Source of the DNA: Chthonomonadaceae bacterium
Lineage (GTDB): Bacteria > Armatimonadota > Chthonomonadetes > Chthonomonadales > Chthonomonadaceae
DNA length: 46,488 bases
NCBI GenBank assembly: GCA_025054835.1
Contig: JANWZQ010000186.1
Location: 1-46,488, forward strand
Reading direction: 5' to 3'
The notes beneath the pieces are model-generated. The model was not told the DNA's origin and did not search any database. It saw only the letters and a program-made list of their open reading frames with translations. The position numbers were made by a program, and so were the translations under genes. How positions within the stretch are numbered: the first letter of the stretch is position 1; each line of letters begins with the position of its first letter. Positions 2,427-18,360 of this stretch are shown here, piece by piece.

Positions 2427-3173
2427 CTACACCAGAGCCTCTTCTCCTTCCATCTGGCCGATATTGATCTCAACGTCCGCCCGCTCCTCGATCTTGGCGA
2501 TCTTGCCATCCCGGATCCAGACAATACGATCCGAGACGTCCACCATTTTCAGGTCATGCGTTGCGGAAATGACGGTTACCCCCTGCTCCTTGTTCAGGCG
2601 CCGTAGCAGAGCGATGATTTCCTCACCCGTCTTGAGATCGAGGTTGCCCGTTGGCTCATCTGCCAGAATGATCGAGGGATGATTGGCCAGTGCCCGGGCA
2701 ATCGCCACACGTTGCTGTTGCCCACCGGACAGCTGGGCCGGGCGATGATGCAGTCGATGCCCGAGCCCCACGATGTTCAGTAGCTCGATCGCTCGCTCAA
2801 TCCCCTCGTCAGTCGGTGTCCCCGCAAAAACGGTCGGCAGCATGACGTTCTCCAGTGCCGTCATGACAGGGATCAGGTTGAACGATTGAAAGATATACCC
2901 GATGGTGTGACAGCGCAGGTAAGCCAGTTCGCGCGCATCCAGCTGCGCCATATCTACGTCGTTAATGAAAACAGACCCCTCATCGGGTCTGTCCAGACCG
3001 CCAATGGCGTTGAACAGCGTGGACTTCCCCGAACCTGACGGCCCCATGATGGAGATGTACTCCCCGCGCCGGATGTCGAGGTCCACCCCGTTCAACGCAC
3101 GAAGCACCTCGTCACCCATCGTATAAATCTTAACAAGTCCTTTTGTACGCACCACATACTCGTTAGCAGCCAT
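2427..3173 (-). CDS. ABC transporter ATP-binding protein, LolD/MacB type
   Basis: A 248-aa nucleotide-binding subunit that should power the FtsX-type permeases encoded just upstream. Seen in order: Walker A GPSGSGKST, Q-loop FQSFNL, signature LSGGQQQRVAIARAL, Walker B IILADEP followed by TGNLD, and the H-loop ATHD. The TGNLD segment and overall length are typical of the LolD/MacB/FtsE family, which drives mechanotransmission or lipoprotein extraction rather than simple solute import. The C-terminal tail after about residue 225 is acidic (VEINIGQMEGEEA) and longer than the minimal family domain. The start is supported by GGAAAGG 8 nt before ATG. It is the last gene of the transporter cluster; cobA-hemD follows after 7 nt. 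Confidence 0.92.
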   Translation of the reverse strand: MAANEYVVRTKGLVKIYTMGDEVLRALNGVDLDIRRGEYISIMGPSGSGKSTLFNAIGGLDRPDEGSVFINDVDMAQLDARELAYLRCHTIGYIFQSFNLIPVMTALENVMLPTVFAGTPTDEGIERAIELLNIVGLGHRLHHRPAQLSGGQQQRVAIARALANHPSIILADEPTGNLDLKTGEEIIALLRRLNKEQGVTVISATHDLKMVDVSDRIVWIRDGKIAKIEERADVEINIGQMEGEEALV

Positions 3174-3900: not shown

Positions 3901-4338
3901 TCACGCCTTCTTGACCTTCCTGTAAAATCCGATGAAGTTGCGCTCATGTAACATTTGCAGAAACATCGTGACCGAGACTTCCGCCTCGCGACGGTTCATC
4001 TTGAATTGCCGGCTCGTCTTCTGAACAATGGCATCAATGGTGTGATTGCCATCACACAGTTCCCACACAAATCCCCCTACCTCATCCAGTTCCACGTATC
4101 GCTCGGGAGGCACGTTCATCCAGCGCGCCAGCGTGCGCGTCACAAATCCTGCTCTCTCGTTCTGGGGCACTGTAAGCAATACATCACCGGAGGGACGTTT
4201 CTCCCATTTCAGCAAGGAATTGCGACCCGGGCGCAGCACAAACACGGCGCTCCGGTCGATCTCTGGAGGACGTATCCTCAGAAAAGGCAACCAGCGCCCT
4301 GCTCTACAGTAAAGCCACATCTTCAGTGGCAAACGCAC
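3901..4338 (-). CDS. PqqD-like (RiPP-recognition-element-like) protein
   Basis: About 145 aa. The C-terminal half (from roughly residue 65) has the PqqD pattern: VELDEVGGFVWELCDGNHTI, then alternating helices QKTSRQFKMNRREAE and a terminal helix MFLQMLHERNFIGF. PqqD domains act as small winged-helix peptide-binding modules in RiPP pathways, but PqqD-like proteins also occur without any peptide-maturation enzyme, and no radical-SAM or precursor peptide is found here. The N-terminal 60 residues are basic and not recognised. Three starts are possible: GTG 4359 (37-nt overlap with the previous gene), GTG 4338 (GGGAG 9 nt upstream, chosen) and ATG 4320 (2 nt after the previous stop). It sits between an unknown protein and the small FtsX permease, suggesting a role with that transporter. 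Confidence 0.7.
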   Translation of the reverse strand: MRLPLKMWLYCRAGRWLPFLRIRPPEIDRSAVFVLRPGRNSLLKWEKRPSGDVLLTVPQNERAGFVTRTLARWMNVPPERYVELDEVGGFVWELCDGNHTIDAIVQKTSRQFKMNRREAEVSVTMFLQMLHERNFIGFYRKVKKA

Positions 4339-5360
4339 CGCTGCACGCTCCCTTTCCACACATCCAGATCGCAGGCTCTCAGGAAAGCCTGAATAGCGTA
4401 GATACGGTTAGACACATCACAATTCCAGATGCCTCCCGCATAGGCATCCGGGAACCTGCGCAGGGAGCCGCGCGCCTCGTAAAAAGCTCTCAGTTTGCCG
4501 GCAGGCGCAAGCACCCCCTCATAATACGCAATTTCGTGTCCGTTCAGGTCATCCCGCAGGGTCCGCGTGTAACGAGACAGATTGACAGCAGCATGGTTCC
4601 GGAGCCATTCGTCGCACGTGAACCGCTTGAGCGTCAGATTCGCCAGCCCCCACCGATCCAGAAAGATCCGTTCTCCCCCACGCGCGAACTCCAGATGCAG
4701 GTAGCCCGAAAGCAACTTCTGTGTATCGAGACGGAAATCTTCAGGGATCTGTATCTGCAGGTCATACAACGCCCACAGATCGTAACCACTCTCACCATGG
4801 CACCGTAGAGAACCCATCAGCTGCGAGGCGACAGCCCCGATTGCCCCTGCTTCCTGTGGCGCTCCTACCACCTGTGCGATCAGAACCCGATGGCAGGTCG
4901 CACAGTACCAGATCTTCCCCTGCCCCCGCCCGTTTCCAACCCAAGTGAAGTTAATCGCGGTCCGCTCCCCCTCGGATCTCTCCGGCTTGATGTCGGCACG
5001 AAAGTCCGTATGCGACCTGCGCGACTTCCTGGCAGTCTCTTTCAGCAGGTTATCCAGATTCGCCCGCAGGTCCGGGGCAATCACGGGCGGCTCCGGGCGG
5101 CGCGACCAGCGGCGGACCACAGCAGCTGCCAGATCGTAAAGTGTGCGTGGCCGGGATCGTGCCACATTCCACCAGCGAACCTGCACGACCAGAGAACCGG
5201 TTCCCGGTGCGTCCACTCGCAGATACCCGTTGTCCCGGTCCATGGAAAACCCGGATACGTTCCAATCCGCCGGCAACACACAACGCACGCCCTGCCAGCC
5301 CACAACAGTGCGCGCCTCCGCTTCCATCGGGGCAGAACGCTCGGAATGTGACGCTCTCAT
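4323..5360 (-). CDS. Unrecognised 345-aa protein of the transporter cluster
   Basis: I do not recognise this family. No signal peptide or transmembrane segment is evident, so it is probably cytoplasmic or peripheral. The N-terminal 60 residues look beta-rich (WQGVRCVLPADWNVSGFSMD, then a dipeptide-spaced GYLRVDAPGTGSLVVQVRWW). The middle has a CATC pair (WYCATCHRVLIAQVVG) and the C-terminal half contains many aromatics, ending in a Cys-rich tail (NCDVSN, RACDLDVWKGSVQRCVCH). The start codon overlaps the stop of the upstream H-X9-DG gene (ATGA at 5357-5360), implying translational coupling, and the PqqD-like gene begins at or near its end. Context suggests an accessory role with the FtsX/ABC proteins; no biochemical function can be assigned. 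Confidence 0.75.
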   Translation of the reverse strand: MRASHSERSAPMEAEARTVVGWQGVRCVLPADWNVSGFSMDRDNGYLRVDAPGTGSLVVQVRWWNVARSRPRTLYDLAAAVVRRWSRRPEPPVIAPDLRANLDNLLKETARKSRRSHTDFRADIKPERSEGERTAINFTWVGNGRGQGKIWYCATCHRVLIAQVVGAPQEAGAIGAVASQLMGSLRCHGESGYDLWALYDLQIQIPEDFRLDTQKLLSGYLHLEFARGGERIFLDRWGLANLTLKRFTCDEWLRNHAAVNLSRYTRTLRDDLNGHEIAYYEGVLAPAGKLRAFYEARGSLRRFPDAYAGGIWNCDVSNRIYAIQAFLRACDLDVWKGSVQRCVCH

Positions 5361-6193
5361 CGCTTCCCGGGCTCCACGGCTTCCACGTGCCCATCGCAGT
5401 ACAGCACGTAATTGCGTCCCTCATGACGCCCGGGCGAAGGCAAACTCGCGAATGCATCGTGGGCGTTCTTCTGCAGCGATGTCGAGTCGTAGAGCAGAGG
5501 CGTCTTTGCCGCCCCGGGCATTTCGCGCAACGATTTCCCGTTCAGAGACTTCCCGGCAATTTGCGTGTTGTATGCGTAGCCATAGCGATCATCCCGCCGA
5601 TTGGAAACTGCCGGGCAATGCATCCACTCATCTTTCACGATGCGCGATGCGATCTCTTCGTTGTCCAGCCAGTTCGCCGCCGGGGGAAGCGCGTCGTAGT
5701 CCTGTGCGTACATGGAGAAAGCCATGTACAGGCTTTTCAGGTTCTCCGCGCAGTCTTTGTACCGCTCCGGTTCGTACTTCCCCCCCTGACCGATCCCGAG
5801 TTCCTTTGCCCCGCGCGCCAGACGTTGCGCCGTCGCATACACCGAGTAGAGCAGGACCATCGTGATCAACAACGCTGGCACGACCGCCCCGTGATGCACG
5901 GGACGTCGGGCGCGGACCTGACGCCCGGCCCAGAGACCACCGATGTAGGCAAATGTGATCGCCGCAGCAACCGTAGCCGCCACACTGTCGATCACCGGAC
6001 CGATACGCGCGGCAATCGGACGCGCTCCCAGAATCAGAGCGAGGTCCAGCAGCAGTACCAGCACACCGGCAACACGCGCTACTGTCGAGCCTCTCTCTGC
6101 ACGTTGCCCCACCAGTACACCCGCTCCTGCCAGCAACAAAGCCAGCCCGACGGCCGCGTAGCATACGGCGTTGAGTATCGCTTCCAGTGACAT
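5357..6193 (-). CDS. Polytopic membrane protein with C-terminal H-X9-DG (DUF1559-like) domain
   Basis: 278 aa. The first 125 residues contain about four hydrophobic helices (LNAVCYAAVGLALLLAGAGV; VAGVLVLLLDLALIL; a glycine/alanine-rich one near 70-90; VVPALLITMVLLYSVYAT). The rest resembles the globular part of DUF1559 pseudopilin-like proteins: ENLKSLYMAFSMYAQDYDALPP, a region giving LREMPGAAKTPLLYDS, and an exact H-X9-DG signature (H, nine residues, DG) near the C-terminus. In the usual family this domain follows a prepilin cleavage/methylation motif; here that is replaced by the polytopic domain, which is unusual. H-X9-DG proteins are abundant in Planctomycetota, Armatimonadota and Lentisphaerota. 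It lies 7 nt after the OPT-like gene and overlaps the next gene by 4 nt. Confidence 0.8.
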   Translation of the reverse strand: MSLEAILNAVCYAAVGLALLLAGAGVLVGQRAERGSTVARVAGVLVLLLDLALILGARPIAARIGPVIDSVAATVAAAITFAYIGGLWAGRQVRARRPVHHGAVVPALLITMVLLYSVYATAQRLARGAKELGIGQGGKYEPERYKDCAENLKSLYMAFSMYAQDYDALPPAANWLDNEEIASRIVKDEWMHCPAVSNRRDDRYGYAYNTQIAGKSLNGKSLREMPGAAKTPLLYDSTSLQKNAHDAFASLPSPGRHEGRNYVLYCDGHVEAVEPGKR

Positions 6194-6200
6194 GGGTATG

Positions 6201-8255
6201 TCAGAAGGGCAGGTAGTTGACGGACTTGGCGATCAGCGCCAGCGCAATAGCGGCCATAGCAATCAGACCCGTGCCGCAGGAGAACCCTGCCAGCAGCACC
6301 GGGGCATACATCCGCCAGTTATCCAGTCCAAAACGTTTCTCAAAGTATCGCCTGCCCAGCCACGCGCCGAAAAAGGTCGGGATCGTATCCATGGGCCACG
6401 CGCCAGCTCCTCCGACAATCCCGTAGAACGTCAACAGAGGCCACTTGAACAATGTGAAAATACCGTACAACCCGAGCCCTGCAAGCACGCCCCCGGCGAT
6501 CCGGTTGAAGTTGATCGCCTCCTTGACCCAGGTGATCCCCCCGCCTTCCTGACGGTTGATGGTGTTGAACATCGCCTGGAACGTTGCATGGATCGGCCAG
6601 ATCTTCGAAGCGTAAGGATGTTGCGCGGACGGGATCTGACTGGTGTGCCAGAAAAACGCCCAGAAGATGAAGCTCGCCACCAGAATCACCGGGAGCATAA
6701 AAGCCTCTACCTTGACAACGCTTACGAACTTCGTCCCGGTCAATTCCACCTCGCGGAAGCGTTGCGCTACCCAGCCGAAGTCGTTCAACTGAATGGGCGC
6801 GTACCAGATGTCGGCATACGGGTAGCCCGACTTCATAATAGACACTTCCTTCAGGTACGGAAACGAGACGCCGGTGCCGGTGATACCGATCATACGGGCC
6901 GATACATACGAGTTGATCGGCGACCAGATCAGGCCATAGAAGACCAGCAACCACGTCGGAAACTGCACGGCACCGGGCTTCCCGCTCGGCCCGAGGCTCA
7001 ACAGGAACCGGGTGAGCAAAATATAGAAAACAGTCACGCAGAGCCAGATGGTGATCGGTATCCAGAGTGGCAGATCCCCTCGTCCCTTCGGCACGCTCGC
7101 CTTCAGGCCGCGGAAACGCGCCTCATGCCGCAGTCGCCCGAACGCCTTGAAAACACTGTAGAACCCGATCAAAGCCACCGCAACTTGAAGACCGATCCCG
7201 ACAGACATCCAGAACTTGATATCTGTCGCCTGCTTCGTAAAGATCGCATCCATGCCGGGCGTCCAGCCACTATCCTCCGAGGATCCGAATGCCCCGAGCC
7301 GGTACAGGAACGGGGCCGCAATCACACGGCAGGTTATTGAACCAATAACGGAGCCCAGAACAATCGGATAAGGGATGACAAAGCCAGTCAGGACTTTCGT
7401 CAGATCTCCAGAAATGCCTGTCAGAGCGCCCGGCAGTATCGACTCGGTATTGGGCGTCAGATCGAAAAACGGGATCGGGATCAACGTGAACGCTTGATTG
7501 AACACCACGCTGGTGAACACTGGAATTGCGATGTAGAAAAATCCAAACACCAGACCGACAACTGTACCGGTCGAAAAAACCCGCCAGCGCCATGACTCTT
7601 CCTTGCTTGCTGCCTCTGCCAGTGCCGTCGCGCCCGACGCCGCCACCGGTGCCATCGGAAACGGCAGTCGCTCGATATCCGAGGTCACCCGGAACAGGAA
7701 GTAGCCAGCGCTCATCCAGTTGAGACGCCCCAGGATCTCGCCGACAACCAGCAGAACGATGGGCCACGTCCACGCAGCATCAAAAAAGGTACGGTTCTGA
7801 AGTGCCGCAGACCCGGCCGGGGGAACAACCCACGAAGGAATATCTTTCGCCACGATGCTCGCTGGAGGTGATTGAATGAAATACTGGTTCCAGATCAGCG
7901 TCCCGAACGGCCCTCCGGAAATCCCCCGATCCTGCAGCACAACGTGTGTCAGAGAGGCGGCCACATAATACAGAATGTAAATCTCCTGCCGCTTCATGGG
8001 CAGGAAGGAGCGTCGCATAATCTCCGCGAAGAGGACGATGGTCACCCACTCAGCTGCCGGCCCCAGCCCCTGACCTGCCACAAGCCCCAGATAGAGCGCA
8101 CCGGGAAGCATAATGAACCCCACGAAGAGCGCGCCCACGATGGTTTTGCCACTGAACCCTTCCTCAAAGCGTCGCTCCTGGGTCTCGGCGCCCTCTTCCT
8201 GAGATTCGACCTCCACCTGTTCCCGAATACGCTCTATCTCTCTCTGTTCAGACAC
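6201..8255 (-). CDS. OPT-like (oligopeptide transporter superfamily-like) multi-pass membrane protein
   Basis: 684 aa with an acidic, glutamate-rich cytoplasmic N-terminus (about 35 residues) followed by roughly 14 hydrophobic segments. Features typical of OPT-like proteins of this size are seen: LPGALYLGLVAGQGLGPAAEW in the first helix pair, a long loop with MSAGYFLFRVTSDIERLPFPMAPVA, and a conserved-looking C-terminal region with FKWPLLTFYGIVGGAGAWPMDTIP. OPT transporters move peptides or metal chelates, but bacterial homologues of this divergent type are mostly uncharacterised, so the substrate is unknown. The start is GTG at 8255, with AGGGAGAG 8 nt upstream. It lies between the M28-FtsX fusion (54 nt upstream) and the H-X9-DG protein, within one probable operon. 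Confidence 0.78.
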   Translation of the reverse strand: MSEQREIERIREQVEVESQEEGAETQERRFEEGFSGKTIVGALFVGFIMLPGALYLGLVAGQGLGPAAEWVTIVLFAEIMRRSFLPMKRQEIYILYYVAASLTHVVLQDRGISGGPFGTLIWNQYFIQSPPASIVAKDIPSWVVPPAGSAALQNRTFFDAAWTWPIVLLVVGEILGRLNWMSAGYFLFRVTSDIERLPFPMAPVAASGATALAEAASKEESWRWRVFSTGTVVGLVFGFFYIAIPVFTSVVFNQAFTLIPIPFFDLTPNTESILPGALTGISGDLTKVLTGFVIPYPIVLGSVIGSITCRVIAAPFLYRLGAFGSSEDSGWTPGMDAIFTKQATDIKFWMSVGIGLQVAVALIGFYSVFKAFGRLRHEARFRGLKASVPKGRGDLPLWIPITIWLCVTVFYILLTRFLLSLGPSGKPGAVQFPTWLLVFYGLIWSPINSYVSARMIGITGTGVSFPYLKEVSIMKSGYPYADIWYAPIQLNDFGWVAQRFREVELTGTKFVSVVKVEAFMLPVILVASFIFWAFFWHTSQIPSAQHPYASKIWPIHATFQAMFNTINRQEGGGITWVKEAINFNRIAGGVLAGLGLYGIFTLFKWPLLTFYGIVGGAGAWPMDTIPTFFGAWLGRRYFEKRFGLDNWRMYAPVLLAGFSCGTGLIAMAAIALALIAKSVNYLPF

Positions 8256-8309: not shown

Positions 8310-11300
8310 CTACGTGCCCGTTGCCGGCTGCGCCCCGGACATGGGTGGCACTGTCTGATCGGAACGCCGGTCCGCGTAGTCCGTCTGTCGGAGATAGCGC
8401 TCACGATCGGCCTGCTTGAGAGTGCGCCAGATCAGAAATTGCTTGCGCAACGTGTTCAGGAACCGCCGGTTCACACGCTTCCAGTTGGAGATATCCCCGG
8501 ACTCACGGTCGATCAAAAGTCGGATATCGAAAACGTCCTCTGTATCGGTCGGAGTCGTCTCTATGGTCACTCGCTGCGAAACACCCAGATCAAACGGCGC
8601 CAACCATGTCATACACTGGATCCGGTACGCCTTCCCGTTGGGGTGTTCAAACTCCTCTTGCTTCACATTCTGCGTTACGAAGTCGCCGATGCTATATTCC
8701 TCGTAAGCCTCAAACCACTCCCCGAGGAAAGAGTTCAAGCCGGAAGCCTGCTCGCCGGTCACTGCAAAAGGCAGTGGGATCACCCAGTGATCTCCATCCG
8801 GCTCCGGTACACGCCAGGAGCGCTCAATGGCCGGTGTGGCTACCTCCGCAGCCTTGCGCGCCGGATAGAGAGTTGACAACAACACGACCCCCACAACGAT
8901 CAACGTCGTCAGTACCGCGCTGACACTGGAGAAGTTCAGATACAGTTCAGGCAACCACCCGGTCCACACCAGAATCTTACTCGTGAACTGCCCCAGGAGG
9001 TAACCGGAAACGGACCCCAGAATGGCGTAGACCATCGCCTCCGCGATAAACAGCATGCCAATGTGAGCTGGAGCCAGCCCAATAGAGGAGAAGATATGGA
9101 TTTCCTTGATCCTCTCGAATACCGACCCGAGCATCGTGTTCAGAACGATGAGCGAAGCGATCAGGATCGGGAAGAACACCATTTCCAGCCCGCGTGATGA
9201 TGTGGCCGCTATTGCCGAGTAGCGCATGATGGTGCCTCGCTCACGCGGATCACGCGCCTCCGGGCGGGTGATCTGCCCGGCATAGAGGTTCAGCGCGAGC
9301 CGATGCATCAACGGATTGAGCCGCTCCATCACCTGCTTCGGATCCTGAAAGTCGATCGCGATGGAGCGCAGCTCGGCCCCAAGGTTCACTGCTGTCTGGT
9401 ACGGGATGAAGAAGACCATATCTGGCTCGAGATGCGTGTACTCCCGGAACCCCTGATCGCCCCCGCCGGCCCCCTGCCGACTCAACTTGTTCATGGCGAT
9501 GAAGTCTACCGGGGTGATGATCTCATTGTCCAGATCCGCAAACTCCTTGAGTTTCTGGCTGTCCAGAATGCCGATTACCGTGTACTCCACACCGCTGTAG
9601 GTGACTTTCGCCTTCCCAACATCCTCTGGTTCGATCCGCAGGGCCTGCGCGATGACATCGGGCAGGATCATGGTGTAGACGTCCCCCTCCTCGAACCACC
9701 GCCCGATCGGCTTGCCGGTCTTCTCATCTGTTAGCAGGGCCTCCTGAGGGCGCAACAGCTTCGCCTCAGCCGGCGACAGACCGGTAAGCGCTTTCGCTTC
9801 ATACTGCTTATCAGCGCGCCGCAGTGACAGGAAGGACTGCTCGCCCAGTTGCGTCCCGAAGAACCATGCCCGGGGCGCCACTGCGTAGTTACGCCCGAAC
9901 TCGTCCAGCAGCGTGCGGTACGCCGGTTCCTGAAGCGGCTCCCACATCGCCGTGCGCAACATGATCCCATTGTAACGCGGGCCATAATCGTTCGGTGCCG
10001 GCACCTGATTGAATCGCATCACCTGCACCACCGAGGTGAAAGAGAGCACCGTGAACGTCAGCAGGATCAGGGTCACGCAGGTGAGGAAGGTTCGCGCCTT
10101 GCGCCGGCGCATGTTGGAAATGCCCAGGTTGAACGCCGCCAGCGCAACCGATACCCGCCCGATATCGGCCCGATGCACCCCACCAATACTCTGGTTCAGT
10201 TGCTTCAACTGCTCTTCGAACTTACCTGCGATGAGTGCAATCACGATGCACGACAGCGCCAGCATGATGAACGCCAGAAGCACGATGATCGGATTCATCG
10301 TGATATCGAAGGCGGGGTGCACGTAGCGAAACAGCGCGAAGATGATCAGGAAGATAAGTCCGGCCACGCTCAGCTGCCGCTTCAGGTCAAAGAAACCAAA
10401 GAGCAAGCGCTCACTGAAATACGCGAAAGGCAACAGCAGTGCCAGGTAGAAAAGCACTCCCTGTACCACGTCGGTCGCAGTGCGTTGCACATCCGGATAA
10501 GCGCGCGACTCCAGACCCCACGCCTCCCGGGAAGCCGCATCGAAGGCCTCCCAGTCCTTCGCCTCACGCGCTTTTCTGGCGCGCTCGATGGCCTCCCGGG
10601 CCCGGTTGTGCAGCCCGGGAACTCCTTCCTTCCCGTTCATGTCCAGGATCCGGTACCGGGCCAGACGTTGCATGCGGTAGTCATCCAGCTTCCACATGTC
10701 CTCCGCCACATGCAACGCGGTATCGTAAATCGCGCCGGAGCGTGCGATCTCAATGGCCGGGTTGTAGTCCTTGATCCTGGCAACGCCCATCAGATCCGCG
10801 TTCTGCTGCTCACGCGGATCTCCAGCAACCAGATAGCCAATGCCCTCTGGCGCAAAATTGGGGTCCTGCTTCTTGTTGAACGGATCCGCAGGGTCGTAAA
10901 TGGAATTGATCAGCAACAGGCGAGTCGCTGCCGGGCCACTCTGCATCACGATCTTGAGCCGTGTACCGGGCTGGGAGAACAGTACGGCTACGTCCTCAAC
11001 GTAGGAGCCAACGATGCCGGGATCCAGAGGGTCGATGGCGTAACCGTACATGCGGGGCTCGCCGTTGGTCTCTCCATCGTAAACCGCAATCCCGGTCAAC
11101 GAACGCAACGACTGCTGGTCTACCAGATCGAAAATCGCCGTGGGAACGCACCGGAAGACGATGAGCGGCGTCTCCTTGACAGCAGTCGTCATCATCACAT
11201 CGAGCGGAATGTACTTTGCTCCGGAAGTACCCAGATCAGGGGCATAGTCGATCTCCCCATTGCGATCCAGGTGATATGCCGCCAGCATAGCCGGTTTGTT

Positions 11301-13205
11301 GATCCCGTAGGCTGTCAGTGGCGCCACACCATGAAAGGCGAAGAAGTTGGCTGGAGGCACCTCCTCACCTTTCTGATTACGCGCCATGCCATTCTGAACC
11401 ATCACCTCCCCGTTTGCATCACGCACCAGATCGCGCATCCGGTCCGGAGTCTGCCATTCGGTTCGCTGGATCATGTTGCCCCGCACGCCCATGAAGGACT
11501 TGTTCCGGTTACGCACAATCACCAGCGAGTCGGCAAGTCGCGGGTCCGAAGTAGCAATGAACGACTTCTTGGGGTCGAACAACTGCACGCGCCCCTGCAA
11601 CGTTGCGAAGCCACCCTGCAATGCCATACGCGCAAACCTGGACGGCTCGGTGATGGGCATCCGTTGCGCGTTGATATCTCCGGGCTCGTTCGTATCCGTA
11701 ACGATATGCCACATCAGGCAGTTGATCAGGCGCACCTGCTGGGCAAGATTGGCAATATTCACCCTGTCCGGCGTGTCAAACGGTGTGTCTACCAGAGCCC
11801 GACTGTCATCGGTTGTCGCGAACGTAACGCCGTTGCCACCTGCCATGGTAACCACTTCCGAGTCGAAAGCGGGCTTACCGGGAATGTAGTTGCGCCAGTT
11901 CTTGCCGTCAACCGGATTAACCCCGTCGTTGAAATAGCGTTTGGAGTTGAACCCCAGTGTGTTGCCAACCTTTTCCGCGTTCTCCCGACACACGCGGGCA
12001 ATGTCACTGAAGCGCCCCTGAATGTCCTCGCGATAGTCGTAGAACCACCCCTTGTAGAAGATCCCGAACGAGCGCGTCTGACTGGTCAGGTCCAGGCCGA
12101 CCCACAGGTAGATCCTGGTCTGTGGCGTAGCCCGTCGCTGGAACCACCCGGGCGCCTGCCACTCCTCCATGTGCCTGTGTACATACTCCCGGATCCCTTT
12201 GAGCGCTTGAAAGTGTCCGCTAGTTGCCACGAACATCATAGTGCGCTTCGGCGGGTTCGCTTTGAAGGCGCGCATCATCTCGAACATTGCCGCGATGCCA
12301 CAGGTCGTGTCCGCCCCGGGAGCCAGGGCAGGCACCACAGAAATGGTGTCGTAGTACGCCTGCACCACGATCACCTGATCGCGCATCTTCGGGTCCGTAC
12401 CCGGGATCCAACCGGTGATGTTGCGCACCGGCCGGGTCAACCACGGCATGCGGCAGGTCAGTTTAACTTTCGGTGGACGCCCGCTCGCACAGGCAGCCAG
12501 CAGAGGAGCTGCCTCTTTTTGCGTCATGTAGAAACGGGGAATGGAAATCGGAATGGAGATGAACTTCGCCTCGGCCTCGCCACGCATTGTGTCGGTCGGC
12601 GCCACGAAAATAACCGCTTTTGCACCCAGGCGGGGAGCGTTCAACCACTCGGAGGCACAGTTAAAGTCTACCATCACGATGGAACCGCTCACGTCCTTCC
12701 CATTGAAGTTACGGAGACGGCCGTCGCGCACGTAGATAACTGGCGCCGTCAGGCCCTCCTCGGGCAGTGTCGAAGTGCGTACCAGATTCGGCCAGAGGGG
12801 GTACATCCGCATTTTGCGCGGTCCTCCGGCCCCCCCCTCCACAAACTCGGCCGTTGCGCCCCTGGAAGGATCCTCCACTCCGGGGTCGAAGGGCACCGAA
12901 ACGTTGAACTCGTCTACGGTGATGCGTTCCAGGCCGATCGCGCGGAACTGTCTCTCCACATACTCCGCGGCCTTCCGGTCCCCGGGATACCCGGCAATCC
13001 GGGAACCAAACCCTGTCAGATCCCGGATGGTCCGGGACAGATTCGCCGGACTGACGCCCGCACTGAACTTCCGGTAGGCTTCCTTCTGCGCCTCGTTTTG
13101 CGCATCACAACGGGCGAAACTCTGAACCAGCAGTAGCGCGATGATTGCAAGATGAATGGCAATACCAGAGCAGATTTGAGGTCTTCGCAAGCCACAGTGC
13201 GACAT
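8310..13205 (-). CDS. Large fusion: degenerate M28 peptidase with PA-like insert joined to an FtsX-type ABC permease
   Basis: 1631 aa. A signal peptide (residues 1-34, ending near FARCDAQ) precedes an M28-like domain (about 45-500) with a PA-like insert (about 150-250). The expected metal ligands are altered: AHYD reads AYYD (Y284), the bridging Asp survives (D299), the catalytic EE pair reads HF (H331-F332), the next Asp survives (D372, GLDL), and the final His of HTPxDT appears as D473. It is therefore probably not a normal zinc peptidase. Three helices (914-994), a first FtsX helix (1037-1060), a roughly 280-residue extracytoplasmic domain and three FtsX helices (1343-1445) follow, with a C-terminal soluble domain of about 170 residues. 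ATG 13205 is preceded by GGAAGGGAAG. It is the first gene of the cluster and probably pairs with the small permease and ATPase. Confidence 0.85.
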   Translation of the reverse strand: MSHCGLRRPQICSGIAIHLAIIALLLVQSFARCDAQNEAQKEAYRKFSAGVSPANLSRTIRDLTGFGSRIAGYPGDRKAAEYVERQFRAIGLERITVDEFNVSVPFDPGVEDPSRGATAEFVEGGAGGPRKMRMYPLWPNLVRTSTLPEEGLTAPVIYVRDGRLRNFNGKDVSGSIVMVDFNCASEWLNAPRLGAKAVIFVAPTDTMRGEAEAKFISIPISIPRFYMTQKEAAPLLAACASGRPPKVKLTCRMPWLTRPVRNITGWIPGTDPKMRDQVIVVQAYYDTISVVPALAPGADTTCGIAAMFEMMRAFKANPPKRTMMFVATSGHFQALKGIREYVHRHMEEWQAPGWFQRRATPQTRIYLWVGLDLTSQTRSFGIFYKGWFYDYREDIQGRFSDIARVCRENAEKVGNTLGFNSKRYFNDGVNPVDGKNWRNYIPGKPAFDSEVVTMAGGNGVTFATTDDSRALVDTPFDTPDRVNIANLAQQVRLINCLMWHIVTDTNEPGDINAQRMPITEPSRFARMALQGGFATLQGRVQLFDPKKSFIATSDPRLADSLVIVRNRNKSFMGVRGNMIQRTEWQTPDRMRDLVRDANGEVMVQNGMARNQKGEEVPPANFFAFHGVAPLTAYGINKPAMLAAYHLDRNGEIDYAPDLGTSGAKYIPLDVMMTTAVKETPLIVFRCVPTAIFDLVDQQSLRSLTGIAVYDGETNGEPRMYGYAIDPLDPGIVGSYVEDVAVLFSQPGTRLKIVMQSGPAATRLLLINSIYDPADPFNKKQDPNFAPEGIGYLVAGDPREQQNADLMGVARIKDYNPAIEIARSGAIYDTALHVAEDMWKLDDYRMQRLARYRILDMNGKEGVPGLHNRAREAIERARKAREAKDWEAFDAASREAWGLESRAYPDVQRTATDVVQGVLFYLALLLPFAYFSERLLFGFFDLKRQLSVAGLIFLIIFALFRYVHPAFDITMNPIIVLLAFIMLALSCIVIALIAGKFEEQLKQLNQSIGGVHRADIGRVSVALAAFNLGISNMRRRKARTFLTCVTLILLTFTVLSFTSVVQVMRFNQVPAPNDYGPRYNGIMLRTAMWEPLQEPAYRTLLDEFGRNYAVAPRAWFFGTQLGEQSFLSLRRADKQYEAKALTGLSPAEAKLLRPQEALLTDEKTGKPIGRWFEEGDVYTMILPDVIAQALRIEPEDVGKAKVTYSGVEYTVIGILDSQKLKEFADLDNEIITPVDFIAMNKLSRQGAGGGDQGFREYTHLEPDMVFFIPYQTAVNLGAELRSIAIDFQDPKQVMERLNPLMHRLALNLYAGQITRPEARDPRERGTIMRYSAIAATSSRGLEMVFFPILIASLIVLNTMLGSVFERIKEIHIFSSIGLAPAHIGMLFIAEAMVYAILGSVSGYLLGQFTSKILVWTGWLPELYLNFSSVSAVLTTLIVVGVVLLSTLYPARKAAEVATPAIERSWRVPEPDGDHWVIPLPFAVTGEQASGLNSFLGEWFEAYEEYSIGDFVTQNVKQEEFEHPNGKAYRIQCMTWLAPFDLGVSQRVTIETTPTDTEDVFDIRLLIDRESGDISNWKRVNRRFLNTLRKQFLIWRTLKQADRERYLRQTDYADRRSDQTVPPMSGAQPATGT

Positions 13206-13352
13206 GGACGCTTCCCTTCCGCGGGGAAACGAGCGAACGCAGGCCGAAGGGGGAACGGCGTTGTTCTTCGTTTCTTCCGGCACAGCATGCCTGCAGGCTC
13301 TGTATTGCTGCAGTAGCTGTGAGAGAAATCTCATGGGGACAGTACGCTTCTC

Positions 13353-13361
13353 ATCTTATCA
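13353..13361 (-). promoter_or_regulatory. Possible extended -10 element for the M28-FtsX cluster
   Basis: On the minus strand the sequence TGATAAGAT reads as an extended -10 (TG-N-TAAGAT) about 150 nt upstream of the M28-FtsX start. No good -35 is visible. It overlaps the stop codon of the phosphodiesterase gene. This is the only sizeable gap in the minus-strand gene run between 18.1 kb and the left edge, so an internal promoter here is plausible but weakly supported. Confidence 0.3.
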
Positions 13362-14240
13362 CAGGGAGCTTAAAAAATCAAGAGAACAGCAACCAGATAT
13401 CCTGCCAGTGCGAGCAGTCTCCCTAACCGATTCTGGCACGCGCCCTAGCAGAAAATCGCGTAATCGGGATAGTTGATCCGTACTGATCAAATCCACACCC
13501 GCATCTCGCAACACACGCCAGCAACCCGGTGTCTCTGGCGTTGCCCAGAAACGCAGCTTCACTCCCCGCTCCCGCGCCTTCCGGACCAGCGTAACCAGCC
13601 GCATTCGCTCTGCAACGGGCATTTCACCGCTTCCAAACCACCGGAAGTGCCGGAGCCATGCATCGCTCACCAGGGGCATCAGATGGGGATCTACCTGCCG
13701 GTCCAGATCTTCCAGACGTCCGTCCACACCGAGGTACCGTACAGGATCCCGGGCAACCATCTCGATAGCACGATTCCCGGACAGGATCACCGTCACCGCT
13801 CTTCTGCGCACGCTACCCGGGCGAAATTCGGTCAGAATGTCAGTGTAGCAGCTCAGAACCTGCCTCAAGCGCACGTATGTCGCATGAGCCTCCGACTTGA
13901 CATCGATCAACAACAGGAACTCCGGACCACCCGGATACACAGTCCCTCTGTTGCGCCGCACGCGCTCCCGGAGCGGGTTGAGGTAAAGGGCCTCCAGGGT
14001 GCGGTGTGACTGTACCTGCGCTCGATCGTGTGCGACCAGCAACGCGTCATCTACCAGATGGATATCTGCCTCCACACTGCAGAAACCGTGTGCCAGAGCG
14101 TCCAGCAGAGGGTGTCTGTGCTCGTAGTCGTTGTGCGCATGCGCGCCAGGCAGCGGTGTGACTCCAGAGGCGCTCAACTGCCCCGCAACCACCAGAAGGA
14201 CCAGAAAGGCGGTCCAGAACAGAGCACCCCTTCGTTTCAT
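13359..14240 (-). CDS. Secreted GDPD/PI-PLC-like phosphodiesterase (AIM6-like)
   Basis: 293 aa with an N-terminal signal peptide (MKRRGALFWTAFLVLLVVAG, cleavage near residue 25). The mature start reads PLPGAHAHNDYEHRHPLLDAL, then SVEADIHLVDDALLVAHD, matching the active-site strands of the PI-PLC/glycerophosphodiester phosphodiesterase TIM-barrel family (His-Asn, Glu-x-Asp, His-Asp). FLLLIDVKSE and the late FWATPETPGCWRVLRDAGVDLISTD segments fit the same barrel. The substrate is unknown; phospholipid-derived phosphodiesters are likely from the family. The start overlaps the VanW-domain gene stop by 4 nt (ATGA at 14237-14240), so they are co-translated. The C-terminus contains a Cys pair (GCCSL) of unknown meaning. 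Confidence 0.82.
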   Translation of the reverse strand: MKRRGALFWTAFLVLLVVAGQLSASGVTPLPGAHAHNDYEHRHPLLDALAHGFCSVEADIHLVDDALLVAHDRAQVQSHRTLEALYLNPLRERVRRNRGTVYPGGPEFLLLIDVKSEAHATYVRLRQVLSCYTDILTEFRPGSVRRRAVTVILSGNRAIEMVARDPVRYLGVDGRLEDLDRQVDPHLMPLVSDAWLRHFRWFGSGEMPVAERMRLVTLVRKARERGVKLRFWATPETPGCWRVLRDAGVDLISTDQLSRLRDFLLGRVPESVRETARTGRISGCCSLDFLSSL

Positions 14241-15025
14241 TGCGCTGGCCTCGCCTCGGGCCAGCTTACGATGCGATCCATCGGCTGGTACAGGTCATCG
14301 CTCAGGCGCTCGCGACGCACCTCTCGTCCGTGCCTGCTGAAGACTCGATAGGTGATCACCCGGCACCCCATGGCACCGGGTTGCCGCAGAAATGCCTTAC
14401 TGTCCGCATAGCCCCCGGCATGTGTGCGTGTTAGACGTTTTGGCGCGGTCCGCGACACGACCTCTGAGATGACTTCTACCTGTTGCTCGGGCCGTCTCTC
14501 TCCCACAAGGCGGATCAGCAATAGATCCCCTTCCAGCCCGGTTTCGATGCGCACTGGAAACGGGTATGGGTTCTGAAAGCGCAGATCCACATGGTATTGC
14601 GCCACAGCGGCGTCCCTTCCCGGAGGAGCGTAGTGCGTTGCAAACACGTGCGGATGTCGTTCCAGGATCAGCATTCCGGCCAGGAGCGCGGCATTGTACA
14701 GGGTGGTGGCGGTCTGGCACACGCCGCCCCCGTAAGCTGGTATCATCTCCCCGTCGTAGCTCACCGGCGCTTTCATGTAACCACGGTCCCAGGTCCACGA
14801 ACGCACCGTTCGGTTGAATGAGAATACTGCCCCCGGTGCGATCACCGTGCCGTTCACCGTGCGCGCCGCTTTCTCCGCGTTGAAACGCTGTGCGCCGGTA
14901 CGACCACGCAGGGAGGTGGCGTATCCGGCGAGCACTACTTCCCGCTTCACAGGCAACGCCAGGATCAGGCAGAGACACCCTGCCCCTCCTGCTGCAAGAA
15001 CAAGCACAGCCAGCTTCTCTCTCAT
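14237..15025 (-). CDS. VanW-family membrane-anchored protein
   Basis: About 262 aa. An N-terminal hydrophobic helix (LAVLVLAAGGAGCLCLILAL) should anchor or export it. The VanW domain follows: RTGAQRFNAEKAARTVNG, then GAVFSFNRTV, then PAYGGGVCQTATTLYNAALLAG, which is the hallmark GGG[VI]CQ-STxLYxA region, and the later FQNPYPFPVRIE. VanW proteins occur across Gram-positive and other phyla, mostly with unknown function, and are often cell-wall associated; nothing here suggests vancomycin resistance. The start is uncertain: ATG 15025 is directly preceded by AGGGGAGGG (spacing short), and GTG 15070 would overlap the cupin gene by 19 nt. The end overlaps the phosphodiesterase start by 4 nt. Confidence 0.85.
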   Translation of the reverse strand: MREKLAVLVLAAGGAGCLCLILALPVKREVVLAGYATSLRGRTGAQRFNAEKAARTVNGTVIAPGAVFSFNRTVRSWTWDRGYMKAPVSYDGEMIPAYGGGVCQTATTLYNAALLAGMLILERHPHVFATHYAPPGRDAAVAQYHVDLRFQNPYPFPVRIETGLEGDLLLIRLVGERRPEQQVEVISEVVSRTAPKRLTRTHAGGYADSKAFLRQPGAMGCRVITYRVFSRHGREVRRERLSDDLYQPMDRIVSWPEARPAQ

Positions 15026-15051
15026 CCCTCCCCTTTCGCGCAGGGCCAGCT

Positions 15052-15423
15052 TCAAAGCAGAGAAGCGCACATCACGGTGTCGTCATCTGTGTAGGCAGGA
15101 ACGCAGCAGCAGAGAAACACCAGATCTGTCATACCGGTATTACGGATCTGGTGTCGCGCTCCGGGGGGAATAGCAATTGCATCCCCGGGAACCACTGTCC
15201 TGTGTTCGTGTTCTACGGCCATAAGCCCTTCACCGGAAAGCACGTAGTAGATCTCCTCGGTACCCGGATGGAAGTGCGCGTCGGTCTGTGCTCCCGGCGC
15301 CAGAGTCGCCTCCGCGAGGCTCTGTCGCTGGATCACGGAATTACGAGGCGCCAGCAACTCGCGGATAGTCGAGGTATCCTTCGTGATGAAAGCCCGGACC
15401 TGCCCGCGATTCACCACATCCAT
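15052..15423 (-). CDS. Small single-domain cupin protein
   Basis: 123 aa, essentially one cupin barrel. The first cupin motif is seen as PGAQTDAHFHPGTEEIYYVLSG, with H-x-H, the downstream Glu and the closing Gly; the second is PGDAIAIPPGARHQIRNTG with its metal-binding His. A mononuclear metal site is therefore likely. Substrate unknown: cupins of this size act as isomerases, dioxygenases or sugar/amino-acid binding proteins. ATG 15423 overlaps the TGA of the upstream thioredoxin-fusion gene by one base (TGATG at 15421-15425), so it is translationally coupled to it. The C-terminal LCCCVPAYTDDDTV contains three adjacent cysteines, uncommon for the family. Confidence 0.85.
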   Translation of the reverse strand: MDVVNRGQVRAFITKDTSTIRELLAPRNSVIQRQSLAEATLAPGAQTDAHFHPGTEEIYYVLSGEGLMAVEHEHRTVVPGDAIAIPPGARHQIRNTGMTDLVFLCCCVPAYTDDDTVMCASLL

Positions 15424-16754
15424 CAGCGTCTGCCTCCCGGCTTGCGCTTCCGCGCCAGTGCCTGCTCTACCACCCGGGCCAGATTGGGCCCACGCAGTTC
15501 GTCGCCCATGGCCAGTATCCTGCCAGTATCTCCATCTACCAGATAGGCCTGTGGTATTGCCTGCACGCCATACAGCTGTGCGATCTCGGCGTTCCAGTAG
15601 CCGCCGTCGTAGATCTGCGGCCACGCCATCCCGTACTCTCGCATGAACGCCCGCAACACCCCGGCAGAGTTCGCGCGATCCAGACTGACCCCCAGCACAT
15701 CAAAGCCTGCATCCCGATACTGCCGGTAGACCGATACCAGGCCGGGCATCTCCTCTCGACAGGGCGGGCACCATGTGGCCCAGAAATCCAGCAGCACGAT
15801 CTTGCCCCGGTAGTCATCGGGGAACGCGACGGATCTCCCGTCGATCAGGTCGGCTTCAAACTCAATCGCGCTGCCTCCTACGCGCAGATCTGCGGCGGAG
15901 ACACTGCTCCTCGCCTGCTGGTCCGACTTCTTCAGGACCATCTGCGTGCCGCGCGCATCGATGTGCGTCACCACATAGGTGCGCGCCCCGATGCGAAACG
16001 GCTTTGCCGCATCGTAGGCCTCGCGACGCACATCAAACGTACCATCACCATCGCGGTCCACCAGCACCGTCACGCGTGGAGGCGCATCGGCCTCATGCTT
16101 GAAGTTGTCGAAACGGCCAGACAGGTCCTGATCTACCAGCGCGATCCGGTAAGTACGTCCGTTGAGGTTCAGCGTGCCGATCCGATGGTACTCCCGGTTG
16201 TACGAGAGCTCGTTATCCCACCAGATGAACTGCAGCGCGCTCTCCACAGCGCCAGCGCGCCCCGGGATGTTGTAACGCACGATCACAGGCACCGTGACCG
16301 TCAGTCGCTCTCCTGCCAGCTGCGTCTCGTCACCGGAATTGCCGGGAACGGGGCTCGGCACCGATGGCGTCATCACATACGGCTTTTCATCCGTCAGGTC
16401 CCCGTTGCCATTGCTATCCACGTAGAGCCGCACGGTGCCTTTGCCCTCTGGCGCGTCCAGCACCACGACAATCCGATGATCACGCGCCTCGCCCAGAGTG
16501 AGAACGCCATATCGTGGCGTATAGCGGTACACGGGCTCGCGCGTCACGTGAGCGGGCCGCATCGTAGAGAGCGCAACAGGGCGCGGAGTCATGGCGCGTA
16601 TGCCTCCGGACGGTCTCGCTGTCAGCGTCACGACCACCGCTTCATCCGCACGAGCCAGCTCCGGGCTCACTCCGGTCACGCCACCGAGCCCGACCAGCAA
16701 GAGCATTGCCAGATCACCTCGTATGCGTTTGCCTCCAGGTCCCGCTACTCTCAT
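15423..16754 (-). CDS. TlpA-type thioredoxin-fold protein with EF-hand-like N-terminal region (copy 2, WCPPC)
   Basis: 443 aa, exported: basic N-terminus, hydrophobic stretch LAMLLLVGLGGVTG, probable cleavage near ARA-DE. Residues about 60-290 hold Asp/Gly-rich loops resembling EF-hands or dockerin-type calcium loops (DSNGNGDLTDE, DQDLSGRFDN, DRDGDGTFDVR). The C-terminal TlpA/ResA-like domain (from about 300) has LLDFWATWCPPCREE with the redox pair C329/C332 and the cis-Pro segment AIPQAYLVDG. It should act outside the cytoplasmic membrane on disulfides. It is a clear paralogue of the gene just upstream, with the same architecture, and the two overlap by 4 nt (ATGA at 16751-16754), suggesting tandem duplication and joint expression. 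Confidence 0.88.
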   Translation of the reverse strand: MRVAGPGGKRIRGDLAMLLLVGLGGVTGVSPELARADEAVVVTLTARPSGGIRAMTPRPVALSTMRPAHVTREPVYRYTPRYGVLTLGEARDHRIVVVLDAPEGKGTVRLYVDSNGNGDLTDEKPYVMTPSVPSPVPGNSGDETQLAGERLTVTVPVIVRYNIPGRAGAVESALQFIWWDNELSYNREYHRIGTLNLNGRTYRIALVDQDLSGRFDNFKHEADAPPRVTVLVDRDGDGTFDVRREAYDAAKPFRIGARTYVVTHIDARGTQMVLKKSDQQARSSVSAADLRVGGSAIEFEADLIDGRSVAFPDDYRGKIVLLDFWATWCPPCREEMPGLVSVYRQYRDAGFDVLGVSLDRANSAGVLRAFMREYGMAWPQIYDGGYWNAEIAQLYGVQAIPQAYLVDGDTGRILAMGDELRGPNLARVVEQALARKRKPGGRR

Positions 16755-18079
16755 CGTGTTTCCCCCGCTTTCTGCAAGCCTTCCAGAGCTTTCACCAGAG
16801 TCGTCTCCAGCGCCTCTCCGCGCAGTTCCGGCGTCACGGCAAGGATTTTTCCCGTTGTCCCATCCACCAGATAGGCCTGTGGGATGCTCTCGACTCCGTA
16901 GAGCTGCGCGATTTCTGCCTGCCAGAACTTGCCGTCGTAGATCTGCGCCCAGGGCATCCTGCGCTCTTTGAGAAAATTCCGGATTTTCTCTGCCTGACCG
17001 GGCTGATCCAGACTGACCCCGAGGATCTCAAACCCCTTGCGACGGTACTTTTCATAGTTCTTCACCAGGCCGGGGATCTCTGCCAGACAGGGCCCACACC
17101 ATGTGGCCCAGAAGTCCAGCAACACGATCTTGCCCTTGAAATCGCCGGGGAAGTTGACGGTCTTACCATCGAGCGTCTGGCGCGTGAAAGGAATTGCGGG
17201 TTTCCCAACGCTCAGGTCCGGCGGGATGGGCACTTCGGCAACACGTACGCTGGAACGTTTGAGCTTGAGCGTTGCTCCGTCCGGACTGACCACGTCGACC
17301 TCATAAACATTCCCTGCGATATTGAATGGTCGTGCCAGATCATACTGCTCGTAACGCATGTCGAAGCGCCCGTCGCCATTCCGGTCGACCAGCAGGCTGA
17401 CACGAGGAGGCTCGTTTTCCGGGTGCATTACTGTGCCAAAGTGCCCCGCAGCGCGCTCGTCGAGCAGCATCACAGTGTACTCTTTCCCCCCCAGCTTCAA
17501 CGTGCCGGCGCGTGCGTAGTCGCGATAGTACAGCAAAAGATCCTCAGGCAAGCCGCGCGACCGGGCGGTCTCGGGGGCAAACCGGTACAGACCTAACCCG
17601 AGTCGGCGCTCTTCCGGGTCTCCCGATCGGGTTGCGATGCGCACACTTCCTTGAAACAGGATCTGGTTCACATCATTGCCAGCACGGTCCTTCAGCTTAC
17701 TGGCCCGTCGCAACCAGTCTACCTTCTCGTCCTCAGTCACCTCGCCGTCGCCATTGGTGTCCACGTACAATCGGGCCTCGGAAGCATCCGGAGCTTCGTC
17801 CAGAACAATCGGTACCCCGTGCTCTCCCTGTCCGAAAGAGATCACTCCATACAGAGGCCTGTGCTTGCAGGCAGGTTCCTTGCGTATACTCTTTGGCCGT
17901 TCTCTGGAGAGCGTCAGGCGCTGCGGCAAGTAGTACCCTGCCCTCTGCATGGCGCCTGCGGGCACAAGGGATAGCTCGGCACTCACGCCCTCCTGTCCCG
18001 CAGCGCCACTTTCAATGATGAGGGCTCCGATTATGCTCAGAACGAGCGGAAGATATGGCCCCACAACTCTGTTTGACAT
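16751..18079 (-). CDS. TlpA-type thioredoxin-fold protein with EF-hand-like N-terminal region (copy 1, WCGPC)
   Basis: 442 aa, exported: N-terminal hydrophobic helix LPLVLSIIGALII with a probable cleavage near the GAAGQE segment. Calcium-loop-like segments DTNGDGEVTEDE (about 107-118) and DRNGDGRFDMR occur in the N-terminal region, which otherwise is not recognised. The C-terminal redoxin has LLDFWATWCGPCLAE (C328/C331) and SIPQAYLVDG. The active-site dipeptide is Gly-Pro, as in thioredoxin, whereas the downstream paralogue has Pro-Pro, so their redox potentials may differ. The start at 18079 has a strong GGAGG 5-6 nt upstream. It is the first gene of the minus-strand series that continues through the cupin, VanW and phosphodiesterase genes. 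Confidence 0.88.
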   Translation of the reverse strand: MSNRVVGPYLPLVLSIIGALIIESGAAGQEGVSAELSLVPAGAMQRAGYYLPQRLTLSRERPKSIRKEPACKHRPLYGVISFGQGEHGVPIVLDEAPDASEARLYVDTNGDGEVTEDEKVDWLRRASKLKDRAGNDVNQILFQGSVRIATRSGDPEERRLGLGLYRFAPETARSRGLPEDLLLYYRDYARAGTLKLGGKEYTVMLLDERAAGHFGTVMHPENEPPRVSLLVDRNGDGRFDMRYEQYDLARPFNIAGNVYEVDVVSPDGATLKLKRSSVRVAEVPIPPDLSVGKPAIPFTRQTLDGKTVNFPGDFKGKIVLLDFWATWCGPCLAEIPGLVKNYEKYRRKGFEILGVSLDQPGQAEKIRNFLKERRMPWAQIYDGKFWQAEIAQLYGVESIPQAYLVDGTTGKILAVTPELRGEALETTLVKALEGLQKAGETR

Positions 18080-18360
18080 TGAAACCTCCGTGCGTGCCTG
18101 CAGTTGCGCCAGTGCCGCCCTCATGTAGCGAGCGCCTCACGGCGTCATCTACCCGGTCCGCGATACAGTATGTGCATGATCTTCGCACCCACGGAAGCGA
18201 ATTCCTGCCGAAGCTTGCTACCCCCGGGATCCATTCCGGATAGCATGTCAGCGCAAACAGAACACAACAGGAAAAGCGACACACCGTGTGGAATGGACCT
18301 CTGTACCCGCACAGTAGATCCGTCAGATCCGGCGTTGTAAGGAAGTCAGGAGAGGAATTG

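Follow-up and report, generated by a model that had tools for sequence, protein, structure and literature searches.

The hallmark of peptidase family M28 is a set of five zinc ligands, H-D-E-D-H, together with a catalytic Glu. In the aminopeptidase of Aeromonas (AAP, 1amp) the residues of this site are His97, Asp117, Glu151, Glu152, Asp179 and His256. The same fold is found in B. subtilis YwaD/BSAP (6hc6) and in the Aneurinibacillus enzyme (2ek8), both of which carry a PA-type insert. Nicalin and the transferrin receptor, the latter also with a PA-type domain, are M28 relatives without known peptidase activity, and transferrin receptors are described as non-enzymatic (PMC10794815). In MacB-type transporters, ATP-driven movement is transmitted through the membrane helices to the periplasmic domains, a process named mechanotransmission (review, PMC5985334).

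The fusion protein studied here shares features with each of these systems. Its extracytoplasmic head has the fold of the M28 aminopeptidases, with the YYDS/HYDS, PGA and DTP/HTP motifs in register and a PA-type insert as in YwaD and 2ek8; unlike in these enzymes, the zinc ligands and the catalytic Glu are replaced and an FtsX permease is attached. The transferrin receptor and nicalin were compared at the level of fold and profile; these two proteins are eukaryotic and stand outside any ABC permease. With the type VII ABC systems (MacB, LolCDE, FtsEX) the locus shares the FtsX domain, the ERxxEI motif, a nearby LolD/MacB-type ATPase and perhaps a periplasmic PCD-like domain, but the fusion adds a head of about 880 residues on three extra transmembrane (TM) helices, and the partner FtsX of the window cluster is almost without periplasmic domain. 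Pseudo-M28 proteins are known from eukaryotes, and no report was found of a bacterial one in an FtsX permease; literature searches that combined FtsX with M28 or with Armatimonadota returned nothing relevant.

Layout of the fusion protein and its M28 fold

The window, that is the whole stretch of 46,488 nucleotides analysed from a Chthonomonadaceae bacterium, contains an ORF which spans 8310-13334 with its longest start, the ATG at 13205 giving the residue numbering of the first-pass annotation. That annotation had placed an M28 domain and an FtsX permease in one ORF at 8310-13205, and both the ORF scan and the Pfam scores agree: Peptidase_M28 (PF04389) reaches 34.0 bits for a cut-off of 21.3 (residues 262-347) and FtsX 53.7 bits for a cut-off of 25.5. 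The MacB_PCD match (23.8 bits) stays below its cut-off of 27, and the Pfam scan of the whole fusion protein found no family for residues 546-912. The topology, predicted from hydropathy only, begins with an N-terminal helix, followed by an extracytoplasmic stretch of about 880 residues and then by three TM helices; the FtsX unit comes next, with four TM helices and a predicted periplasmic domain between helices 1 and 2, and the tail is cytosolic (Table 1). The opposite strand also has a 1095 aa ORF (9849-13136, +), which was taken as a high-GC by-product.

Table 1. Features of the fusion gene and of its cluster, in window coordinates.
Feature	Position	Strand	Basis
Putative pseudo-M28/FtsX fusion protein, 1631 aa	8310..13205	-	ORF, Pfam
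N-terminal signal/anchor helix, residues 11-29	13119..13175	-	Hydropathy
M28 aminopeptidase fold including PA-like insert, residues 36-545	11571..13100	-	AlphaFold2 model, PDB matches
PA-like insert, residues 153-233	12507..12749	-	Pfam, below cut-off
Y284 at first Zn-ligand His; Y61 F6 N3 H1 of 71	12354..12356	-	hhalign, homologue alignment
D286, retained as second-shell Asp of HxD; 71/71 scored	12348..12350	-	Homologue alignment
D299 close to bridging Asp; loop shorter by one residue; 62/72 have Glu	12309..12311	-	hhalign, homologue alignment
H331 at catalytic Glu151 position; 72/72	12213..12215	-	Homologue alignment, PDB profile
F332 at Zn-ligand Glu152 position; F 53/72	12210..12212	-	Homologue alignment
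D372, kept Zn-ligand Asp; 72/72	12090..12092	-	By-eye LDL/NMDM match and invariance
E450, invariant new acidic residue at canonical SDH motif; 72/72	11856..11858	-	hhalign, homologue alignment
D473 at last Zn-ligand His; 70/72, Asn in 2	11787..11789	-	hhalign, homologue alignment, PDB profile
Second extracytoplasmic region, residues 546-912, beta-rich then helical	10470..11570	-	AlphaFold2 model
Three predicted TM helices, residues 913-991	10233..10469	-	Hydropathy
MacB_PCD-like periplasmic domain and its first TM helix, residues 1039-1238	9492..10091	-	Pfam, below cut-off
FtsX permease domain, residues 1343-1453, with invariant ERxxEI coupling motif	8847..9179	-	Pfam, alignment
Predicted OPT-fold transporter, 684 aa, next gene downstream	6201..8255	-	AlphaFold2 pLDDT 82; 7wsr Z 21.2
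Pilin/DUF1559-like protein, 278 aa, 4 predicted TM segments; found in close family	5357..6193	-	Pfam, hydropathy
Conserved protein, 345 aa, CxxC motif, no recognised family	4323..5360	-	Locus comparison
PqqD-like protein, 152 aa, 57 bits	3901..4359	-	Profile match
Short FtsX subunit with hardly any periplasmic domain, 231 aa	3252..3947	-	Pfam, hydropathy
LolD/MacB-type ABC ATPase, intact Walker A/B and LSGGQ	2427..3173	-	Profile matches, motifs

An AlphaFold2 model of residues 36-912, built from 47 aligned family members, has a mean pLDDT of 90.9 and a pTM of 0.90. The top Foldseek matches of this model are M28 aminopeptidases (2ek8, E 5.8e-26), and the structural aligner superposes it on 1amp over 269 residues (Z 29.6, rmsd 2.5 Å) and on the human transferrin receptor (3kas, Z 27.3). 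Searched against the PDB, the family profile retrieves 2ek8 (E 7.9e-23) and nicalin (E 4.7e-9), and hhalign pairs it, with a probability of 99.8 (E 3e-30), with M28 enzymes from this and related genomes whose site is intact. Because the model, Foldseek, the structural aligner and the PDB profile matches converge, the M28 homology of the head is not in doubt; the fold that had been called recognisable from the letters is that of an M28 family member, by structure as well as by sequence profile.

Residues of the former active site

The five-ligand set H-D-E-D-H with its catalytic Glu is absent from the window protein and from 72 homologues; in its place stand Y, E/D (on a short loop), F, D and D, together with a His. 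In hhalign, AYYDT is paired with AHMDH, GHF with GEE and VDTPFDT with YHRPTDT, and the PDB profile search agrees on the placement of Y284, H331-F332 and D473. Relative to the Aeromonas aminopeptidase the changes are His97 to Tyr, Glu151 to His, Glu152 to Phe and His256 to Asp, so that the substitutions read by the first-pass annotation (first His to Y284, Glu-Glu to H331-F332, last His to D473) hold in profile alignment with intact M28 enzymes. Its further claim, that both ligand Asp residues stay, stands in part. D372 is kept in 72/72 homologues; hhalign leaves a gap in this region, and the pairing with the retained Asp was made by eye (LDL/NMDM) and by invariance. The retention of D299 is doubtful, because the loop after PGA reads PGA-(4 residues)-G in the homologues, one residue less than the canonical PGADDNASG, because Glu occupies the position in 62/72, and because the aligners disagree, hhalign matching D299 to the first Asp and leaving the bridging one unpaired, HMMER matching it to the bridging Asp itself. 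The idea that intact ligands lie nearby and were merely mis-aligned was ruled out by the agreement of hhalign and HMMER on Y284, H331-F332 and D473; in this check D299 alone is ambiguous between aligners, and D372 was read by eye.

Conservation of the altered pocket

The 72 distinct homologues extend down to 38% identity with the window protein over the alignment, and none of them has a canonical site. H331, D372, E450, D467, R469 and D477 are invariant. Of the 8 former-site positions, 5 reach an identity of at least 97%, as do 26 of the 328 in the domain core, a difference beyond chance (Fisher p 1e-4), the site positions being taken from the M28 family with the exception of E450, which was added after the alignment had been seen and without which the count is 4 of 7. 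The altered residue set is also shared by second copies of the gene in the same genome, which are 39-42% identical to the first. One homologue (L036:2345-6940) has the canonical first His (AHYD), its other altered positions being as in the rest.

Whether homologues conserve the same changes had been proposed as a check, and canonical ligands in homologues as a refutation: H331 and D372 are kept in 72/72 and D473 in 70/72, position 284 is mostly Tyr or Phe, and homologues with canonical ligands number none among 72. A recent mutation of a single genome is ruled out by these 72 homologues, and decay by ORFs of about 1500-1900 aa with invariant pocket residues throughout. Since the altered set is itself conserved, sequence comparison indicates a long-standing selection on a repurposed pocket rather than decay, in agreement with the earlier proposal of a pseudo-peptidase selected for a non-canonical role. 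The invariance of E450, D467 and R469, the conserved operon and the ATPase come in addition to that proposal. Conservation at the scale of the phylum would make the head an exceptionally clear example of an active site repurposed under selection, with single residues open to mutation, in a phylum that has cultured members.

Permease half and gene cluster

In the FtsX half, the Glu and Arg of the coupling motif ERxxEI (E1364 and R1365) are present in 72/72 homologues and E1368 in 71/72; the FtsX domain and this motif are those of a type VII ABC (MacB/FtsX) permease. Downstream of the fusion follow, in this order, the 684 aa membrane protein, the pilin-like protein, the 345 aa protein, the PqqD-like protein, the 231 aa FtsX and the LolD/MacB-type ATPase. 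The best match of the ATPase is LolD, with 232.4 bits for a curated cut-off of 307.75, and the lolCE score of 16.2 lies below the curated cut-off of 362. The cluster minus the pilin-like protein also follows the fusion in distant Armatimonadota (L063, L065, L066, L067 and L116). The short FtsX and ATPase genes are downstream of the fusion in most loci and directly upstream of it in others (L046, L047). As side observations, the 345 aa CxxC protein lies between the OPT and PqqD genes wherever the cluster is complete, and locus L116 has an insert of about 250 residues.

The 684 aa neighbour itself has no Pfam match. In structural comparison its model (pLDDT 82) aligns over 550 residues with YS1, an OPT transporter of barley (7wsr), at a Z of 21.2, the runner-up, an unrelated protein, having 3.8, and a homologue in L035 hits the OPT profile PF03169 with an E of 1.4e-5, yet with 24.5 bits for a cut-off of 25.8. 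According to the model, this prokaryotic neighbour has the OPT fold, shared with barley YS1 at 12% identity.

The OPT gene is directly downstream of the fusion in 52/72 loci. A second, divergent paralogue clade (L050, L051, L052, L110, L114, L118) has no OPT gene alongside and keeps the altered pocket. Over 201 Armatimonadota genomes, 146 have both fusion and OPT, 45 neither, 7 the fusion only and 3 OPT only, and at least one of the 10 discordant genomes is explained by a split contig (G015, with the N-terminal half of the fusion). Several families (f14, f15, f19, f8) each repeat the both-or-neither pattern. In f14, both genes occur in eight genomes and neither in six, and a single genome has only a weak match to the fusion; the cluster is dispersed in this family, and in the six genomes whose gene positions were compared, fusion and OPT lie on separate contigs or at a large distance from each other. 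The Fisher p values, 1e-33 over the 201 genomes and 0.0014 in f14, both ignore phylogeny, the profiles not being independent counts. The permease and the OPT gene are inherited together, with near-perfect co-occurrence. This co-occurrence and the cluster shared with the short FtsX and the ATPase suggest that Armatimonadota have an envelope machine not yet described.

Possible role of the head

Our preferred explanation, to which we give a probability of about 0.6, is a non-catalytic receptor head, a pseudo-aminopeptidase, on a type VII ABC machine that works with the OPT transporter. The M28 fold would have been kept while the two-zinc catalytic site was dismantled and the pocket rebuilt around D286, H331, D372, E450, D467, R469 and D473. 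The head would then be the extracytoplasmic ligand-binding part of a MacB/LolCDE/FtsEX-like machine, with the old active site as its pocket. As partner of the FtsX half, the short FtsX subunit is the most likely candidate, and the cluster's own LolD-like ATPase would power the permease. Mechanotransmission would relay the ATP-driven movement of the membrane helices to the head, which would bind or release its ligand; the machine might serve uptake through OPT, release or signalling. The paralogue clade with no OPT gene alongside and the dispersed cluster of f14 speak against this explanation. The fold and the OPT partner would suggest a peptide or a protein N-terminus as the most plausible ligand, which the head, cooperating with the OPT-fold transporter, might hand over to it. 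Since the fusion is inherited with a peptide-type transporter and its zinc site is lost, it probably holds a ligand without cleaving it, and the tight link with OPT makes peptide binding more plausible. The fuller proposal, an ATP-driven peptide machine in which the aminopeptidase-derived pocket captures periplasmic peptides and passes them to OPT, is unlikely as it stands; if true, ATP-powered mechanotransmission would drive or gate an otherwise secondary transporter.

From the residues at the site we infer a lack of peptidase activity in the M28 domain, for which H331 is not the best argument. The PDB entry 2anp is titled as a functional Glu151-to-His mutant of the Aeromonas aminopeptidase, and it scores 47.9 bits with the family profile, above the 42.2 bits of the wild type because of its His at 151; H331 alone need not abolish hydrolysis, and the loss of His97, Glu152 and His256 is the stronger argument. 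The pocket, invariant and rich in acids and bases, may yet have a catalytic role or hold a single metal. Another metal geometry, the alternative offered by the first-pass annotation, may still apply. A site rebuilt into a different enzyme, either with a mononuclear metal (E/D299, H331, D372, D473) or as a metal-free acid/base pocket, acting on a peptide or a modified amine, would fit the functional title of 2anp and the invariance of H331, D372, E450, D467 and R469, which look catalytic rather than merely structural. We consider it rather unlikely, two of the three Zn2 ligands (E152 and H256) being now Phe and Asp and H97 now Tyr, with a Phe unfavourable in a metal pocket and position 299 ambiguous.

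The invariance of the old active-site positions also bears on a role as protein-protein scaffold only, in which the M28 fold would hold the FtsX/ABC partners with no small ligand in the pocket: such a scaffold does not need these positions to stay invariant, which makes it quite improbable despite the large second domain and the kinship with the transferrin receptor (3kas, Z 27.3) and nicalin. The LolD match of the ATPase (232 bits) and FtsX halves resembling LolCE/MacB would suit a Lol-like lipoprotein-release system of Armatimonadota, the M28 head gripping lipoprotein N-termini. We hold this to be highly improbable, since the LolD cut-off of 307.75 is not reached, the LolCE matches are weak, ten further FtsX matches outside the cluster could fill the role in the bacterium's own genome, and about a quarter of the genomes are without the cluster, which is unexpected for an essential system.

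Distribution and gene neighbourhood

A pattern scan of 84,980 species, which finds close relatives only, gave matches only in Armatimonadota or unnamed MAGs, and on plasmids isolated M28 enzymes were found and no fusion. In the tree of the 72 homologues, the window protein is placed among Chthonomonas and Chthonomonadaceae MAGs. The C-terminal 300 residues of the fusion are carried by 153/201 Armatimonadota genomes at E <= 1e-8, and the fusion protein is kept across most of the phylum. Directly upstream of the fusion, the window has GDPD-like and VanW-like genes (13359-15070), which are beside the fusion gene in none of the relatives checked. Redoxin-like genes occur repeatedly near the cluster (window 15423-18124, L061:10923-12080, L057:13833-14372), and in some relatives they are located between the fusion and the OPT genes.
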